Assembly: GCA_001873165.1 (NCBI GenBank)
Contig: MNYO01000090.1
Coordinates: 1-10,146, forward strand
Source of the DNA: Candidatus Gracilibacteria bacterium CG2_30_37_12
GTDB taxonomy: Bacteria; Patescibacteriota; Gracilibacteria; BD1-5; UBA2023
Direction of reading: 5' to 3'
DNA: 10,146 nt
Part shown: one piece after another, positions 214 to 9,513 of the stretch
How positions within the stretch are numbered: the first letter of the stretch is position 1
Layout of the letters: every line of letters starts with the position of its first letter
Made by a program: the position numbers and the translations under genes
Notes under the pieces: model-generated
Seen by the model: the letters and a program-made list of their open reading frames with translations, nothing else
Database searches by the model: none
What the model was told of the DNA's origin: nothing

Positions 214-1431
214 TTATTTCATCTTATTTCTCAAAAATGCAGGAACATCGAGATCAGATTGAGGTGCGATACTTGGAGTATTGGTATTTCTCTGAGAACT
301 CTGATTGGATGGTATATGCATCAAATCTTCTTGGTGTCCGAGCATCTTTTTCCCAAACTGATTTCCGATGGTTTTTGTTGCTTCTGGATATCGTTGATTT
401 GTATCGCCATTGAAACCAGTAGCAACAACAGTAATCTTGATTTCTCCTGTATAATTTTCATTGATCGTTGCTCCGAAAATAATATTTGCTTCTGGATCAC
501 ACGCTTCGGTAATGATACGAGCCGCTTCGTCAACCTCAAACATAGAAAGATCGGTTCCTCCTGTGATATTGAAGAGAAGTCCACGAGCTCCCGCGATAGA
601 AAGTTCGAGAAGAGGGGAGTCGACCGCCGCTCGGGCAGCCTCAACCGCTCGAGTTTCTCCACTTCCATACCCGATACCCATAAGAGCAGAACCAGCATTT
701 TCCATAACTGATCGAACATCAGCAAAGTCGACATTGATAAGTCCTGGAAGAGTAATGAGATCAGAAACTCCTTGTACTCCTTGATTGAGAACTTCATCTA
801 CGATATTGAATGCATCCAAAAGAGGAGTTTTTTTATCAATAATGGAGAGAATTTTATCATTGGGGATTGTGATGAGTGTATCTACTTTTTCCTTGAGTTT
901 ATCGTACCCATCGATGGCTTGAACAAATCGACGTTGTCCTTCAAAAGCGAAAGGTTTTGTAACAACTCCGATAACAAGTGCTCCGAGTCCTTTTGCAATT
1001 TCAGCGATAACAGGAGCTGCTCCTGTACCAGTTCCTCCACCAAGTCCACAAGTAACGAAAACCATATCAGCCCCCATAAGAGCTTGTTTGATTTCTTCAC
1101 TGGATTCTTCCGCCGCTTTTTTACCAACTTCTGGATTTGCTCCAGCTCCGAGTCCACGAGTCGTTGCTCGTCCGATATTGATTCGAACTTGTGCTTTGGA
1201 TGTAAAAAGTGCTTGAGCATCGGTATTGACTGCGATGAATTCTACTCCTTCGAGTCCAGATTGAATCATACGATTGATCGCATTGGAACCAGCTCCTCCA
1301 ACACCAACTACTTTAATACTTGCGACAGGAGATATATATTCTGATACGTGAATTTCTTCGGAACTTCTTGAAAAGTTTTTTCCTCCACCAAGGAGAGATT
1401 TAAGTTTGTCATCAGTTTTTCTGATAGCCAT
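214..1431 (-). CDS. ftsZ: Cell division protein FtsZ
   Basis: FtsZ is the tubulin-like GTPase that polymerises into the Z ring at mid-cell. The 405-residue product shows the family order clearly. The nucleotide-binding N-terminus has VGVGGAGSN at about 42-50. The tubulin signature GGGTGTG is at 131-137. The catalytic T7 loop NVDFAD is at 233-238, and [11 protein letters not shown] follows near 330-340. A short linker leads to the conserved C-terminal peptide DVPAFLRNK (about 394-402), which contacts FtsA and other partners. The N-terminal tail before the fold is about 36 residues, longer than in many homologues. The ATG start at 1431 is the first in frame and has no Shine-Dalgarno sequence. 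It ends in TAA, and by hand count none of its roughly 45 glycines uses TGA. It lies downstream of ftsA on the same strand with a palindromic element between them, and a strong terminator follows it. Confidence 0.97.
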
Positions 1432-1561: not shown

Positions 1562-2797
1562 TTATGGCATTATTTTTTTCAAAGCATTCTTGATAGATCC
1601 AAGGAATCCACCGAAAGAAAGATTAAATTTGAATCCACTCCGAGTCACTCCATATTTCTGAGAAAGAAGAAGTGTTCCGATAATTCCAGCAAACATTGGA
1701 TCTCCGATAGAGGTTCCGCTGATGAAGTCAGAATCTTCAGGGGTTCCTATCATAGAAGGAAGCCTCAGTACTTCTTTGGCAAGTTCATTGATATCTCGTG
1801 CTTTTGCACCACCTCCACTTATAACTGCTCCTTCTGGAAGCATTCCATCTCGTCCGATTTTCTTGAGCTCATTATTTACATAGTAGAAAATCTCACTATA
1901 ACGTGCTCGGATAATCTCAGAAAGGTACTTTCGAGAAATCGTGGTCGTTTCATTTTTGGAAATCTTTGCGAGATCAATCTCATCATCTTTTGCTTTTTCA
2001 TCTTTACAGAATCCGATAGAACCGTACTCGATTTTGAGTTTCTCTGCTGTGTCGATAGATACACGAGCTCCGAGAGCGATATCCGAAGTTACATGTTCTC
2101 CTCCTATGGGTATGACCGTTGCAAATATGAGAGATCCTTCCTCATATACGGCAACATCTGTCGTGCTTGCTCCGATATCGATACATACCACTCCGAGTTC
2201 TTTTTGTCTCTTGGAAAGAACCGCTTCTGGTGCTGCGAGGACATTTGGATAGATATCGAGAATATCCACACCCACATCGTAAATACCTTTTTTGATATTC
2301 GAGAGAATATTGCTAGAGATACAAAATATATGACTGCGAACTTCGAGTTTCTTCGCAGACATTCCAACTGGATTTTTGACACCAGATTCCATGTCGAGTG
2401 TGAATGCTTCTGGGATAACCTTGAGCACTACTTTGTTCATAAGATCTACTCCATTCTGACTCATATCGAGAACGCGATTTACATCCTCGGTGCTCACTTC
2501 TCCATGTGGCACAGAGATAATACCGTTGTTAGTAACTACTTCGATATTGGTTCCAGAAAGAGAAAGATAGATAGCAGAAACTTGCTCTCCAGTCATTCGT
2601 TCTGCTTCAGAAAGAGAATCGTCTATATTTTTTTTGAATTCATCCATATCGATGATATTTCCTTTTCGGATACCATTGGACTTCGCTATACCGACTCCGA
2701 GAACACGAAGTTTCTTGTCTTCAGTAAATGTGGCGATGACAGTTTTGATTTTTGCTGTTCCTATATCTATGGCGGTAAATACTTCTCCAGATACCAT
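1562..2797 (-). CDS. ftsA: Cell division protein FtsA
   Basis: FtsA is the actin-like ATPase that tethers FtsZ filaments to the membrane. The 411-residue product carries the actin-fold motifs: phosphate-1 loop AIDIGTAKIKT near residues 9-19, phosphate-2 loop CIDIGASTTDVAVY in the middle, and the adenosine motif AVISGGGAKARDINELAKEV towards the C-terminus. The last residues, GFLGSIKNALKKIMP, form a basic amphipathic helix matching the membrane-targeting sequence of the family. I chose the ATG at 2797 because the protein then begins just before the first beta-strand. The frame is open 14 codons further to a TTG at 2839, but that extension looks non-conserved. No Shine-Dalgarno sequence is seen and the stop is TAA. 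No TGA occurs among roughly 39 glycines. It probably forms one unit with ftsZ, which follows after 130 bp. Confidence 0.95.
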   Translation of the reverse strand: MVSGEVFTAIDIGTAKIKTVIATFTEDKKLRVLGVGIAKSNGIRKGNIIDMDEFKKNIDDSLSEAERMTGEQVSAIYLSLSGTNIEVVTNNGIISVPHGEVSTEDVNRVLDMSQNGVDLMNKVVLKVIPEAFTLDMESGVKNPVGMSAKKLEVRSHIFCISSNILSNIKKGIYDVGVDILDIYPNVLAAPEAVLSKRQKELGVVCIDIGASTTDVAVYEEGSLIFATVIPIGGEHVTSDIALGARVSIDTAEKLKIEYGSIGFCKDEKAKDDEIDLAKISKNETTTISRKYLSEIIRARYSEIFYYVNNELKKIGRDGMLPEGAVISGGGAKARDINELAKEVLRLPSMIGTPEDSDFISGTSIGDPMFAGIIGTLLLSQKYGVTRSGFKFNLSFGGFLGSIKNALKKIMP

Positions 2798-2860
2798 ACG
2801 TAGTGATTGATTAGTAGAAAATAAAAAGTTGGTGTACAAAAAATGTATTCAGGAGGATGC

Positions 2861-3080: not shown

Positions 3081-4409
3081 ATGCAAAGTAGTTCAAAAAA
3101 GCTCAATGCCTACACGGTAGAGCTTACCATCAAGGAAAATACAAAAGAATTCGACAAAGCTCGAATAGAAGCGATAGAAAATATCCGAAATAATGCGAGT
3201 ATCAAGGGTTTTCGTAAAGGAGCTCAGATACCCGAAGAAGTGATTGTGAAAGAATACGGAGAAGAAGTGATTCGTGAGCGAGCAGTAAATATGCTTCTTG
3301 ATAAGATTTACCATAAAGCTCTTCAAAAAGAGGGGATTGTTCCTGTTTCAGCTGGTACAGTTAAAGCTATTGTCTCAGAATCTCCATTGGAAGTAATTCT
3401 TGATATAGAAGTGCTTCCAGAGGCAATTATCGACGAAAAGAAGATGAAGAAAATTAAAGTTAAAAAAACAGAAGTAAAAACGGAAGAAGATGAAGTAACT
3501 TCTACTATCACAGAAATCGAAAAAAGATTTACGCATTTCCATGATACTGGAAGCGAAAGTGAAGATGGATTCAATGCTTCTGAAGTGGTGATTGAAAAAG
3601 GGGATCGTGTAACTATCGATACACAAGGATTTGATAAACAAGGAGGGAAAGAGATTCCAGAAACAAAAGTTGCCGCATTTCCACTCGTTATCGGTTCTGG
3701 ATCTTTTATTCCAGGTTTTGAAGAGAAAATGATGGGAAAGAAAGTTGGTGAAGTGGTGGAATTCGATATCACCTTTCCAGCGGATTATCATTCAGAAGAG
3801 TTCAAAAATCGTACAGTATTCTTTATGACAACTATTTTCCGAATCGAAAAAGCACATAAACCAGAATGGACTCCAGAGTTTATCGAGAAACTTCGAGGAG
3901 TGAAGACTGATTTCGAAGGATTCAAAGAAGTACTTCGAAAAGAGATTCATAACGAGAAAGAATACCAAGCACGAGGAAAAGATGAACATAATCTCCTCAC
4001 AGAACTTATGGAAATTACTGAACTCGAGGTAGGCCCATCACTTGTCCAGAGCGAGATAGACCGAGTATTTTCTGAACAGAAAAGCAATATCGAATCTCAG
4101 GGATATACTATGAAAGATTATCTTTCTCATGCGAAACAAGACGAGACTTCCTATAAAGAATCTATCGTAAAACCAGAAGCAATTCGTCGAGCAAAAGCAG
4201 AACTTATCCTCAAAAAAGTTCGAGAGATTCTCAATATTGAAGCAACAGAAGAAGAAATAAAAGAAGAAGTTGAAAAAGTAATTGCTGCGTATTCTAGTAG
4301 TAAGGTAGTAGACCGTCTTCGAGAGAAACTCATTCCTGGAGATGATTACTACGAAGATATCAAGAATCGGGTGACATACCGAAAAGTGGTTGATTCATTT
4401 TTTGCTTAA
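3081..4409 (+). CDS. tig: Trigger factor (ribosome-associated chaperone, FKBP-type PPIase)
   Basis: Trigger factor binds the ribosome exit tunnel through its N-terminal domain and shields nascent chains. The 442-residue protein has the ribosome-binding signature GFRKGAQIP at 43-51. An FKBP-like peptidyl-prolyl isomerase domain spans about 170-258 and includes IGSGSFIPGFE (204-214) and FPADYHSEEF. A long helical C-terminal chaperone domain rich in Glu, Lys and Arg completes it. Order and length match the family. The ATG at 3081 is preferred over an upstream TTG at 3021, because that TTG lies inside the promoter's -35 region. No Shine-Dalgarno sequence is visible. The stop is TAA and no TGA is used among about 22 glycines. 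It is divergent from ftsA and followed by secA, linking co-translational folding with export. Confidence 0.95.
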   Translation: MQSSSKKLNAYTVELTIKENTKEFDKARIEAIENIRNNASIKGFRKGAQIPEEVIVKEYGEEVIRERAVNMLLDKIYHKALQKEGIVPVSAGTVKAIVSESPLEVILDIEVLPEAIIDEKKMKKIKVKKTEVKTEEDEVTSTITEIEKRFTHFHDTGSESEDGFNASEVVIEKGDRVTIDTQGFDKQGGKEIPETKVAAFPLVIGSGSFIPGFEEKMMGKKVGEVVEFDITFPADYHSEEFKNRTVFFMTTIFRIEKAHKPEWTPEFIEKLRGVKTDFEGFKEVLRKEIHNEKEYQARGKDEHNLLTELMEITELEVGPSLVQSEIDRVFSEQKSNIESQGYTMKDYLSHAKQDETSYKESIVKPEAIRRAKAELILKKVREILNIEATEEEIKEEVEKVIAAYSSSKVVDRLREKLIPGDDYYEDIKNRVTYRKVVDSFFA

Positions 4410-4484: not shown

Positions 4485-7235
4485 ATGATAAATACTCTCA
4501 TTACAAAAATATTTGGTGATCCCTCTGATAAACGAGTTGCTTGATATACTGCTGATCTTGAAGCAATTAAAGCTCTTGAAGTGAAACTCGAATCAGAGCT
4601 TACCTCTTTGGATCTTGTGCAAGCAAAAACTCGAGATTTCATGGCGAAGTTTGAAGGTCTGGATTATCGACAAGATGAAGATTATAAAAAGATTCGTTCG
4701 ATTTTGAATGAAATAAAATTCGAGGCCTTTGCGGTACATCGTATCACTTGTAAGCTCATCAATAATCAGACCTTTGTACTCCCAGAGAATCGAGTTATGA
4801 AGTGGTCGATGGTTCCGTACGATGTTCAACTCGTTGGTGCACTTGCACTGCACGATGGTTCTATTGCCGAGATGCGAACCGGAGAAGGGAAGACTTTGGT
4901 TGCGACAATTGCTGCATATTTGAATGCACTTGCAGGACTTCCTGTGCATGTTGTGACAGTCAATGATTACCTTGCGAAACGAGATGCTCTAGAGATGGGG
5001 GTTATTTACCGAGCTCTTGGACTTACGGTCGGAGTAATCGTTCATAACCAGCAACCGAGCGAGAAACAGGAACAATACCGATGTAATGTCGTATATGCGA
5101 CCAATAATGAACTTGGATTCGATTATCTTCGAGATAATATGGCACCAACTTTGGAACGCCGTTCCATGGGGCCACTTTTCTTCGCGATTATTGATGAAGT
5201 GGATTCTATCCTCGTGGATGAGGCTCGAACTCCCCTTATTATCTCTGCTCCCGACAGTGAACCGACGAGTAAGTATATGAAGTTTGCTCAGATTGCAAAA
5301 AAGTTGGAAAATATAAAACATTATAAGATAGATGAGAAGATGAAAACAGCGAGTTTGACGGAAGAGGGAATTATAGAGATAGAGCGTATACTATGAATAG
5401 ACAATATCTATGTATCTGCTCATTACAACGATTTGCACCACATTGAAAACGCCCTCAAGGCAGAAACAGTCTATATCAAAGATGTAGATTATCTGTCTCG
5501 AAATGATGAAATTTTGATTATCGATGAACATACGGGACGTGTACTTTCTGGACGACGATATTCTGACGGACTTCATCAGGCTATCGAAGCCAAGGAAAAT
5601 GTGACTATTCAACAAGAATCTCGAACACTTGCATCCGTTACTTTTCAGAACTATTTCCGTCTCTATCGAAAACTTTCTGGGATGACTGGTACTGCCAAAA
5701 CCGAAGAAGAAGAATTTTATAAAATCTATCGATTAGAAGTTCTTTCTATTCCGACGAATCGCCCACTTATTCGAGATGATAAAACCGATCTCCTTTTCAA
5801 AAATGAGATGGGAAAATTTGCCTATGTTGTGAAACTTATCAAGGCATTTCATGAAGCAGGACAACCTGCTTTGATTGGAACAGTTTCTGTTGTAAAATCT
5901 GAATATTTGAGCGATCTTCTGACAAAAGAAGGCATTCCTCATAAAGTTCTCAATGCAAAACAAGATGCGAATGAAGCGGAGATTATCGGAGCAGCTGGTC
6001 AGTTTGGAGCGATTACTATTGCGACCAATATGGCAGGACGAGGAACTGATATTAAGGTATCGGAAGAAGTACGAAATCTGACTGGGGAAGTAACCGTCGA
6101 AGGACAAACGTATAAACTCGGAGGACTCGCAGTTATCGGAACAGAAAAACATGAAACACGTCGTATCGACAATCAGCTTCGTGGACGTTCTGGACGCCAG
6201 GGGGATCCAGGAATCTCTCAATTTATGGTGAGTCCACAGGATGATATTATGCGAGTGTTCGGAGGTGACACGCTTTCCTCTATTTTTAATTCTCCCGCGT
6301 TTGCTTCGATTCCCAATTATGAACCAATTCTCCGTTCTGCGATGCTCACAAAGCGTATCGATGGAGTTCAGAAACAAGTGGAAGGACGAAATTTTGATGT
6401 TCGAAAACATATTCTCGAATACGATGATGTTCTCAATCAACATCGTCTTGTAATCTACGGACGACGTAATAAGATTCTAGAAAAAGGTGATATTCACGAG
6501 GATATTCTCGATATTGTTCGTGATCAGGCAAATACTCTTGTGGAAAGTATTCTCTATTCTGACAATAAATACGATTGGGATTTTGATCACCTTATTTCTG
6601 AAATTAATACTTTTGCTCTCAAAGATATTCTTCAAACGGAACATATTACCGATGGAGAAGATAAAGAAGCGATAAAAGAAGTAGTGGCAAATCAGTTTGT
6701 GGCAACTATTGAGGCAATTCGTGCCAGTGCAAGTGTGGAAGAGTTCGCAGATTTTGAACGTCGTCTTATGCTCCAATCTATCGATGAACTTTGGATGCAA
6801 CATATTGATACTATGGCACATCTCCGAGAAGAAGTGGCTTTTGAAGGATTTGCTCAGAAAAATCCACTCATTGTCTATAAAGAACGAGCTTTTGATAAAT
6901 TTGTCGCACTTCTCAAAGAGGTTGGATTTAAGGTAACAAAAGGTCTTTTAACTGCTTCTCCTCGTCAGAAAATAGAACAGATCGAACTCGATGAAAAAAC
7001 GCTCCAAGCACTTCTGCAAACAGATGAAAGTGAATTGAAAAATTTGAATATCAATAATCTCCTTTCTGATGCGATGGCTCAAAAGTTTGGAGCTCCATGA
7101 CACCAGGAAGAAGGAGTTCGAGTATTTCAAGCGGACGCAAAAAAAGAACTTTCCTCTGAATATAAAAATGTTGGACGAAACGAAGTATGTCCTTGTGGAA
7201 GTGGAAAAAAGTTTAAACAATGTCACGGAAGATAA
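4485..7235 (+). CDS. secA: Preprotein translocase ATPase SecA (with three UGA-Gly codons)
   Basis: SecA is the motor that drives preproteins through SecYEG. Read with UGA as Gly it is one 916-residue protein. Visible motifs in order are the N-terminal ITKIFG, Walker A TGEGKT (about 132-137), [12 protein letters not shown], Walker B/DEAD region [18 protein letters not shown] (from 237), [21 protein letters not shown], the arginine-finger region [12 protein letters not shown], and the helical scaffold segment around [16 protein letters not shown]. The C-terminal zinc-binding tail has Cys902, Cys904, Cys913 and His914. In-frame TGA codons are at 4542 (residue 20), 5394 (304) and 7098 (872). The one at 304 sits in Leu-Gly-Ile-Asp-Asn, where homologues have Gly. 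Under the standard code the gene would lose its start and zinc tail. About 19 extra residues (around 93-111) precede the conserved YDVQL. The start follows CCCTATAAA with no Shine-Dalgarno sequence; the stop is TAA. Confidence 0.95.
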
Positions 7236-7319: not shown

Positions 7320-8099
7320 ATGTCAGAAAACGAAATACTAGAAAAAGAGATTGTTCCTTCTGTCACCACAGAAGAGACAACTCCTATTAGAGAAATACCG
7401 ACTGAAGAATCTTCCAAAACTCCATTTCATGAAGTTATTGATATTATTATCATCCTCGTGGTAGTGATATTTGTTCGTACTTATATTGCTGCTCCTTTTC
7501 AGATCAGTGGTTCATCCATGGAGGAAAGTTATCATGACAGAGAATTTATCCTCGTGAATAAATTTTCATACGAGGATTTTTGACTTACAAAAGTGGGAGA
7601 TCCTGTTCGTGGAGATGTTGTTATTCTTCGTCCGCATGCATCCAATGGAAAAGAATATTATATCAAACGTGTGGTCGGAGCTCCTGGAGATACGATTCGT
7701 TTTTCTAGTGGAAATGTGTTATTGAAACAATCAGGAAAGACGAATTTTGTACAACTCGATGAACGATATCTTTCTCTCGCAAATAATGGAAAGACCTTTT
7801 TGCCCATCGATGTTAAGGAAACAGAATTTACGGTTCCAGAAGGAGAATATTTTGTCATGGGAGATAATCGAAATAATTCCTCGGATTCTCGTGCTTGTTT
7901 TCAATCATGTTCTATCTCTGGTTCCACTCACTTCGTCAGTCGATCAAATGTTGTTGGAAAGCTCTTTGTCGATTTTGGGTATATAAATCTCTTCCGAGAA
8001 TGAGGAGTTACGACGACGGGTAAATGGATATGGACGCATAATCCACGCTTTCTTTCTACGCCAAAAGATTGGGTGTACAATGAATTATCATCTTTATAA
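7320..8099 (+). CDS. lepB: Signal peptidase I (with two UGA-Gly codons)
   Basis: This membrane serine protease removes signal peptides from exported proteins outside the membrane. Read with UGA as Gly it is 259 residues. An acidic, Thr/Glu-rich cytoplasmic tail (about 1-35) precedes one membrane segment at about 39-58. Box B contains GSSM with the catalytic Ser66. Box D is YYIKRVVGAPGD with the general base Lys116. Box E is GDNRNNSSDSR at 181-191. Between box E and VVGK (211-214) lies a longer than usual loop with Cys193 and Cys197. TGA codons are at 7581 (residue 88) and 8001 (residue 228); the second precedes a tail of about 31 residues ending in TAA. Under the standard code the gene would break before its Lys box. 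It leads an apparent operon with the HD gene after 2 bp. SecA just upstream works in the same export pathway. Confidence 0.93.
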
Positions 8100-8101
8100 A
8101 A

Positions 8102-8647
8102 ATGCATAAAAAAATATCGCTGAGACGTTACAAGCACGCAAAGGAATTCCTAGGTTTCATAGGTTATATTGTTGAGGATAAACATTTCAAAGGACTTCAA
8201 GCACACAAACATCATATCTTCTTTAATCGGTATGAACATTTAATCAATGCTTCATACTTGGCTTATAGGCTTGCAAAGCTTGTAAAGGCTGATTTAGAAA
8301 CCTGTGCACTTGCAGGACTTCTTCATGACTACCATTTTACGACACTCAAATCGTATAGCCATGCAGTTATTGCTGCTAAAAATGCTGCGAGATTTGGAGT
8401 TTCGGAAGAAGTTATAGAAATTGTTCGATCTCATATGTATCCACTTGGAAGAGGAAAGATAGATCGTGCGAAAGGGAAGAATTTCTGGGTAGTAAAGGTA
8501 GCAGATTTTAGTGCAGCCATTTTTGAAGTAAGTTACTCGATTTTATCTTTTTCCTTTCATCCACAAAAAATCAAGATGAAACGAACGATACTCCTTCTTG
8601 AAATGCTAGAAAACAAAGAAGAAACTACACCTAAAAACGCTCCGTAA
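8102..8647 (+). CDS. HD-domain protein, probable metal-dependent phosphohydrolase
   Basis: The 181-residue protein fits the HD superfamily, which binds metal ions and usually hydrolyses phosphate esters. Likely ligands are His46 (RYEH), His75-Asp76 (GLLHDYHF), His111 (IVRSHMYPLG) and Asp135 (VKVADF), with a further His87 before the IAAKNA stretch. The spacing is that of a single compact HD domain. There is no signal peptide or second domain, and the C-terminus is a short charged helix. The substrate cannot be read from sequence; YqeK-like nucleotide hydrolases share the general layout, but I do not claim orthology. The ATG lies 2 bases after the lepB stop, and the TAA shares its last base with the truB ATG, so it sits in the middle of a tightly coupled operon. 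No TGA is used among its 8 glycines. Confidence 0.85.
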   Translation: MHKKISLRRYKHAKEFLGFIGYIVEDKHFKGLQAHKHHIFFNRYEHLINASYLAYRLAKLVKADLETCALAGLLHDYHFTTLKSYSHAVIAAKNAARFGVSEEVIEIVRSHMYPLGRGKIDRAKGKNFWVVKVADFSAAIFEVSYSILSFSFHPQKIKMKRTILLLEMLENKEETTPKNAP

Positions 8648-9513
8648 TGTTTTATCTGATACATAAACCTATTGGTATTTCGAGTTTTTCTGCTATTTCT
8701 CACTTACGAAAAAAGTTTGGGATTAAAAAAATCTGACATACTGGCACACTTGACCCTCTCGCGACGGGTCTTTTATTGGTTGCAACTGGTAATTCTACAA
8801 AACTCATTCCGTATATTGATAAGGCTCGAAAAACCTATGTTTTCACGGTTCGCCTCGATGGTTCTACGCCTTCCTATGATTTGGATACGCCAGTAGAATA
8901 TCTATCCGATTCTATTTTGGAACAAGCTCAGATAACACTTACAGAAGAAAAGATCGAAGAAATTATTCAACAACATTTCTCGGGGAAAATAGAACAAATT
9001 CCTCCCTCTTATTCCGCTATTCGTACACAGTGACGACGTGCTTATGAACTCGTTCGAGAGTGACAAGAGGTGATTATTTCCAAACGAACGATAGAGATAT
9101 TTTCTTCGAGAATTGTTTCATTTTCATTTCCAGAAGTGACAATCGAGATGGAAGTTTCCGTAGGAACTTATATCCGATCTATCGCTCGGGATTTGGGTGA
9201 GAGACTCTGACTTGCTGGCTATGTGACGATGCTCCACCGAAGTAAAATAGAACATCTCTGAGAAAAATTATCCCATAAAACAGAAGATATTTCCATCGAA
9301 AATGCTCTTTCTTACGAAGCGATATTTCCTGAATTTCATGTGATTTCTCCTTCACAAAAAGTACTTATTGATCTCAAAAATGGAATTGTTTTTGAAAATA
9401 CACTCTGACTACAGGTATGAAAAAAGTATCTCGTAAAAGATGGGAATATGTTTGTTTCCCTCATTGAAGAACGTGATGGAATGGTAAGAATTTGCACAAA
9501 TAATATCGAATAA
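8647..9513 (+). CDS. truB: tRNA pseudouridine(55) synthase TruB (with seven UGA-Gly codons)
   Basis: TruB isomerises uridine 55 of the tRNA T-loop to pseudouridine. With UGA read as Gly the frame is open for 288 residues from ATG 8647 to TAA 9511. It contains the catalytic motif GHTGTLDPLATGLLL with Asp36, PPSYSAI at about 119-125 followed by a GRRAYELVREG-like stretch, and GTYIRSIARDLG at 173-184. A C-terminal PUA-like part covers about 235-288. TGA codons lie at 8734, 9031, 9061, 9208, 9259, 9406 and 9418 (residues 30, 129, 139, 188, 205, 254, 258). The first is the invariant Gly of GHTG, and the second and third match Gly in the family's NG-R-YEL-REG pattern. Thus 7 of about 20 glycines are UGA. 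The start overlaps the HD gene stop (TAATG), suggesting translational coupling. The standard code would show only fragments here. Confidence 0.94.

Follow-up and report, generated by a model that had tools for sequence, protein, structure and literature searches.

Sequence context and coding capacity of truB

The locus raises the question of whether a truB frame interrupted by seven TGA codons is a broken gene or an ordinary one, written in a code in which UGA is read as glycine (NCBI table 25). The window, i.e., the whole stretch of 10,146 nucleotides that was analyzed, carries the following genes when read with UGA as glycine.

214 to 1431, minus strand: ftsZ (TIGR00065); 45 glycines, no TGA
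1562 to 2839, minus strand: ftsA (TIGR01174); 39 glycines, no TGA; the ATG at 2797 may be the start
3081 to 4409, plus strand: tig, trigger factor (TIGR00115); 22 glycines, no TGA
4485 to 7235, plus strand: secA (TIGR00963 and NF009538, over cutoff); in-frame TGA at 4542, 5394, and 7098
7320 to 8099, plus strand: lepB, signal peptidase I (TIGR02227, over cutoff); in-frame TGA at 7581 and 8001
8102 to 8647, plus strand: HD-domain protein gene (PF01966); no TGA
8647 to 9513, plus strand: truB, tRNA pseudouridine(55) synthase; 288 amino acids with UGA as glycine, stop TAA
9615 to 9884, plus strand: rpsO (TIGR00952); no TGA

The last base of the TAA of the HD-domain gene is the first base of the truB ATG. 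Reading with table 11 breaks secA, lepB, and truB, through TGA only. Within truB, in-frame TGA codons lie at 8734, 9031, 9061, 9208, 9259, 9406, and 9418 and write seven of its 20 glycines; the frame from 8647 to 9513 contains no internal TAA or TAG, and the terminal codon is TAA. In the list of table 11 open reading frames (ORFs) of at least 60 amino acids, the region appears as fragments only. The earlier note had described a frame that, apart from its seven TGA codons, is that of TruB and ends in TAA, and all seven positions and the TruB scores agree with this description. The table 25 translation scored 187 bits with TIGR00431, over the curated cutoff of 151.45, and 157 bits with PF01509 (TruB_N), while PF16198 (TruB_C_2) reached 23.6 bits, below its cutoff of 29.3. 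Solved TruB structures also match the table 25 protein (e.g., 1sgv, E 4.8e-36). The motif GHTGTLDP, which we take to have a catalytic role, is kept when UGA is read as glycine, and TGA 8734 supplies its first Gly.

Decay of truB to a pseudogene in a standard-code bacterium would account for a frame that table 11 breaks seven times, but is extremely improbable given the lack of internal TAA or TAG and the full TruB score. In-frame TGA is also found in secA, lepB, and prfA, essential genes of the same genome; GGN codons occupy most of these sites in congeners; and, of the 55 genomes with a TruB match, 51 have TGA within the TruB frame. Accordingly, truB reads as broken under the standard code, yet is an ordinary intact gene when UGA is glycine.

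Identity of the encoded protein is 70 to 78% to TruB of the five congeners in which a match was obtained and does not exceed 49% in the other relatives searched; horizontal acquisition of truB was rejected on these values. The five congeners have zero or one TGA in truB as compared to seven here. Treatment of truB as an anomaly of TGA count was nevertheless dropped: the probability of at least seven in 20 is 0.004 at a share of 0.109, but 87 ORFs were sampled, several with at least 35% TGA, and truB had been chosen for its TGA. The gene is at the high end of UGA share for the genus and is not exceptional.

Residues aligned with the UGA codons

The TruB protein was aligned with those of 29 relatives (those with a listed locus among the 54 relatives with a TruB match), and the residues encoded by sense codons were counted at each of the seven TGA sites.

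8734 to 8736, plus strand: TGA, first Gly of GHTGTLDP; Gly in 16 of 16 relatives with a sense codon, TGA in 13 more
9031 to 9033, plus strand: TGA, Gly before RRAYEL; Gly in 16 of 16, TGA in 13 more
9061 to 9063, plus strand: TGA, Gly of VREG; Gly in 17 of 20, TGA in nine more
9208 to 9210, plus strand: TGA, second Gly of DLGERLG; Gly in 13 of 15, TGA in 14 more
9259 to 9261, plus strand: TGA, variable position; Gly in three of 28, TGA in one more; among congeners Gly in two of five and D, N, or S in three of five
9406 to 9408, plus strand: TGA, variable among relatives; Gly in six of 25, two gaps, TGA in two more; among congeners Gly in four of five
9418 to 9420, plus strand: TGA; Gly in 12 of 22, one gap, TGA in six more; among congeners Gly in five of five

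The assignment of TGA 8734 to the Gly of GHTGTLDP, and of 9031 and 9061 to conserved Gly positions, had been made in the earlier note from the sequence and is borne out by these counts; the latter two codons are the Gly residues in TQGRRAYELVREG. In alignments with 1sgv and 1ze2, presumably from standard-code bacteria, Gly was read by eye at the first four sites (8734, 9031, 9061, and 9208). As judged by alignment, four of the seven truB sites identify glycine firmly, and 9259, 9406, and 9418 are not strongly conserved Gly positions.

The comparison was extended to all 12 in-frame TGA codons of the window (three in secA, two in lepB, and seven in truB) and their genus orthologs. Gly was found at 43 of 54 sense codons, the rest being N (5), Q (3), D (1), S (1), and E (1), and nine further aligned genus codons were TGA themselves. 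At secA TGA 4542, Q or N is present in all six congener rows. Because of these residues, and of D, N, or S in three of five congeners at 9259, glycine at 4542 and 9259 probably arose recently. At lepB 7581 the five congeners compared have TGA as well, without exception, although it is a minor codon in the genus.

Reading of UGA as tryptophan (table 4) is the other known bacterial reassignment of this codon, as described in a passage of PMC8629427. It is nonetheless highly improbable here, with no Trp among the 54 residues at the 12 window sites and none at the seven truB sites in the 29 relatives aligned, and with glycine identity bases and U73 in all 30 UCA tRNAs that were read (see below). 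Cys was likewise found neither at the 12 window sites in genus orthologs nor at the seven truB sites in the aligned relatives, in agreement with the original call of glycine rather than Trp or Cys.

Release factors

The bacterium's own assembly comprises 946 kb in 134 contigs and is 90.5% complete. It holds prfA, at 443.5 bits against a curated cutoff of 423.25. A search with TIGR00020 for prfB, the gene whose absence the earlier note had proposed as a check, gave a sole match in this assembly, the prfA gene at a score below cutoff; no true prfB was found there, nor any over cutoff in 58 of the 59 genomes searched, with a control that was positive in 10 of 14 well-known genomes. The one relative with prfB over cutoff (G058; 2.7 Mb, 500 contigs) has it at full score. 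This genome also has a prfA-like match holding 16 TGA codons and otherwise has TGA-rich genes, and the stretch with its prfB (contig C153) carries five long table 11 ORFs, one of them pantothenate synthetase-like by eye. The contig is probably a contaminant.

A tRNA with anticodon UCA

A search of the same genome for a tRNA-Gly with anticodon UCA had also been proposed. In the genus, five of seven genomes carry such a tRNA with glycine identity bases; in the 134 contigs of the fragmented assembly itself, tRNA and covariance model searches found no UCA-anticodon tRNA. A 79-base tRNA with this anticodon is present in the congener G005. In each of the five genomes it adjoins tRNA-Arg(GCG), four copies being identical and the fifth having one change, and the two genus genomes without it are the most fragmented ones. 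A covariance model, run with stricter filters and at most 80 candidates scored per genome, recovered the tRNA at no less than 92 bits from 50 of 59 genomes, the next best match scoring 58.3 bits. Of the 45 genomes with completeness of 90% or more and contamination of no more than 5%, 43 have it; the two without are the bacterium's own genome and G008.

Loss of the UCA tRNA from this species, with near-cognate reading of UGA by, e.g., tRNA-Gly(UCC) or tRNA-Trp(CCA), would explain why it is missing from the assembly. Such a loss is very unlikely: only 22 tRNA matches were obtained here as compared to 36 in G005, eight of the nine genomes without the tRNA are at most 90.5% complete, and the TGA share of the genome falls among the values of tRNA-bearing congeners. 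Neither the 3 kb around the UCA tRNA of G005 nor its NDK neighbor had a match in the assembly, as expected if the locus is in a gap, though this search, which had no positive control, shows little. The genome presumably carries tRNA-Gly(UCA) in an assembly gap.

The 30 best-scoring of the 50 copies all have anticodon TCA, G1:C72, C2:G71, G3:C70, U73, and CCA. The four features G1:C72, C2:G71, G3:C70, and U73 are the glycine identity rule used in a passage of PMC8629427. In this bacterium, glycine is probably the amino acid with which the tRNA is charged.

ARAGORN labels the UCA tRNA as tRNA-SeC (e.g., L084:1374-1452), the one point in favor of reading UGA as selenocysteine or cysteine. An acceptor and T arm of 7+5 bp, a variable loop of five bases, and glycine identity bases fit the tRNA, and the long form of tRNA-Sec does not; moreover, no Cys occurs at the truB or other window sites, and UGA is too frequent, at about 11% of glycine codons in the sampled ORFs of the genome. 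A selenocysteine or cysteine reading is therefore vanishingly improbable, and the ARAGORN label is an annotation trap.

Structure was examined in an alignment of the 30 copies (L144-L173, including L145:1501-1579), of which 15 are distinct, in two families. Support for the cloverleaf comes from compensatory variation in the stems of the acceptor, anticodon, and T arms, with five two-sided pair changes as compared to one upon sliding by +1 column and none upon other slides, counted on an alignment fitted to the cloverleaf structure itself. The covariation score of the stems was reached by no shuffle. One of five measures, further pair types, was not above shuffles, with 430 of 500 shuffles reaching its value. 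The energy fold of the tRNA was indistinct from shuffles (z −0.36). The D-arm segment is nearly invariant over the 30 copies, the proposed D stem never varying, and differs from that of tRNA-Gly(UCC) of the same genus. It is possible that this odd, nearly fixed D arm has a role in reading UGA.

Frequency of UGA among glycine codons

Shares of UGA were obtained from sampled stretches, in which ORFs were chosen greedily by length and left uncurated; TAA and TAG stops in these ORFs follow from the ORF definition and are no test of stop use. In the bacterium's own genome, TGA makes up ∼10.6 to 10.9% of glycine codons (10.6% being 194 of 1838, over 112 kb sampled), an approximate share since a spurious plus-strand ORF displaced ftsZ in the window sample. 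Five congeners, with GC of 0.36 to 0.46 in sampled stretches, have 7.5 to 12.6%. In six AT-rich relatives (GC 0.21–0.31; one 20-kb stretch each), TGA makes up 55 to 86% of glycine codons.

Individual ORFs of the genome differ widely. Those with scant TGA include rpoB (0 of 94 glycines), rpoC (1 of 99), EF-Tu (0 of 32, partial), and two prepilin-like proteins (0 of 29 and 0 of 31), all of which were chosen for scant TGA and named afterward, so that the paired test below is fairer. TGA-rich ones include a DNA methylase-like protein (6 of 10 glycines) and a Tsp45I-type restriction enzyme (7 of 17), both at L113:103-1515 on contig C113 and likely a restriction-modification pair written in the host's code. 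A 310-aa ORF on another contig of the genome (C128; L114:677-1606) has 25 of its 46 glycines written TGA; searches of Pfam and NCBIfam at E 0.001 gave no match to it, and it may be spurious.

A paired test drew on 27 of the 59 genomes, chosen for having a TruB locus and three rpoB segments among the matches listed, with the 74 glycines of the bacterium's own rpoB as the denominator common to all genomes. The TGA share of truB exceeded that of rpoB in 23, fell below it in three, and equaled it in one (Wilcoxon one-sided p 1.6e-5, a value which overstates the evidence because the genomes are related), with a rank correlation of 0.88. Omission of the bacterium's own genome, the source of the truB that prompted the analysis, left 22 of 26. 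Among titles and abstracts of the codon-use literature on the lineage, none was found with the contrast of rpoB and truB; absence from print is not claimed.

A tentative reading, plausible yet somewhat on the doubtful side, is that UGA in the higher-GC genus is a rare codon for glycine, read slowly by the tRNA with the odd D arm, and that selection excludes it from genes of high expression (rpoB, rpoC, EF-Tu, and pilins). In the favored view of the UGA shares, the UCA tRNA would be scarce or slow, and proteins made in abundance would be kept free of UGA by selection, except where AT pressure is the stronger force; such selection would predict the lower UGA share of rpoB. The differing conservation of the two proteins may likewise contribute to the contrast of rpoB and truB, or produce it. 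If selection against a slowly read UGA is at work, the lineage shows gene-by-gene and genome-by-genome tuning of a reassigned stop, driven by GC content and expression, and the D arm would be the part that lets tRNA-Gly(UCA) read UGA.

Discussion

Taken together, the window almost certainly comes from a member of the Candidatus Gracilibacteria lineage that uses NCBI table 25 and in which truB is intact. In the mechanism proposed, release factor 2 would have been lost, UAA and UAG would be the stops recognized by release factor 1, and glycine would be inserted at UGA by a dedicated tRNA-Gly(UCA). In the higher-GC genus UGA is a minor glycine codon, and its share differs from gene to gene. The intact truB would yield an ordinary TruB, probably active, that modifies U55 of tRNAs.

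As a discovery this carries little weight, because the UGA-to-glycine code used here is already known and is no new code: it is established in the lineage and backed by proteomics, according to the part of PMC4032931 consulted. The practical point is that table 11 makes truB, secA, lepB, and prfA of this genome appear broken. Use of UGA from a few percent to more than 80% within one order, mostly lower in rpoB than in truB, is a natural series for the spread of a reassigned stop. For a specialist, what merits further examination is the gradient of UGA use, together with the fixed D arm.

Lineage and comparison with known systems

Among the 10 SecA loci listed, six at 84 to 88% and one at 66% identity are from Candidatus Gracilibacteria, and the other three, at 34 to 41%, are from Bacillota-type genomes by title. 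The closest TruB matches with an organism name are from Candidatus Gracilibacteria or "uncultured bacterium (gcode 4)," and several already carry an annotation as Candidatus Gracilibacteria TruB. The earlier note had left the choice between Gracilibacteria and Absconditabacteria; the nearest named relatives favor the former, and the latter are not indicated for the window.

A UGA-to-glycine code was predicted for BD1-5 and SR1, as stated in passages of PMC4032931, PMC6851277, and PMC13293708. The part of PMC4032931 consulted gives proteomic support for it in a BD1-5 population, and a passage of PMC6851277 reports no prfB in the BD1-5 genomes then available. Some genomes named Gracilibacteria keep UGA as a stop, with release factor 2 (passages of PMC8629427 and PMC11393006), and therefore the name alone is no proof of code. 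According to a passage of PMC11393006, the genomes of GTDB class JAEDAM01 in that study are recoded and those of GTDB class Gracilibacteria keep the UGA stop; the code of the present genome fits class JAEDAM01.

With the table 25 members of Gracilibacteria, BD1-5, or class JAEDAM01, the genome shares UGA at conserved Gly positions, a release factor 2 that was not found, a tRNA-Gly(UCA) in most of the genomes searched, and its named relatives. The genus differs in its higher GC (0.36–0.46) and lower UGA share (7.5–12.6% as compared to 55–86% in the six AT-rich relatives). Absconditabacteria (SR1), also of table 25, share UGA as glycine and a specialized tRNA-Gly(UCA), which in SR1 is charged with glycine according to passages of the review PMC13293708, there in reference to Campbell et al. 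2013 for the specialized tRNA. They differ in that the nearest named proteins and contigs here are those of Candidatus Gracilibacteria. CGA is common here (409 CGA and 69 CGG in sampled ORFs of the genome), in contrast to the rarity of CGA and CGG in clades that reassign them, as described in a passage of PMC8629427. The Mollicutes and insect symbionts that use table 4 have a UCA-anticodon tRNA as well. They resemble the present system in that UGA became a sense codon with loss of release factor 2, as stated in a passage of PMC6851277. Their UGA, however, encodes Trp, whereas the UGA sites here are those of Gly.
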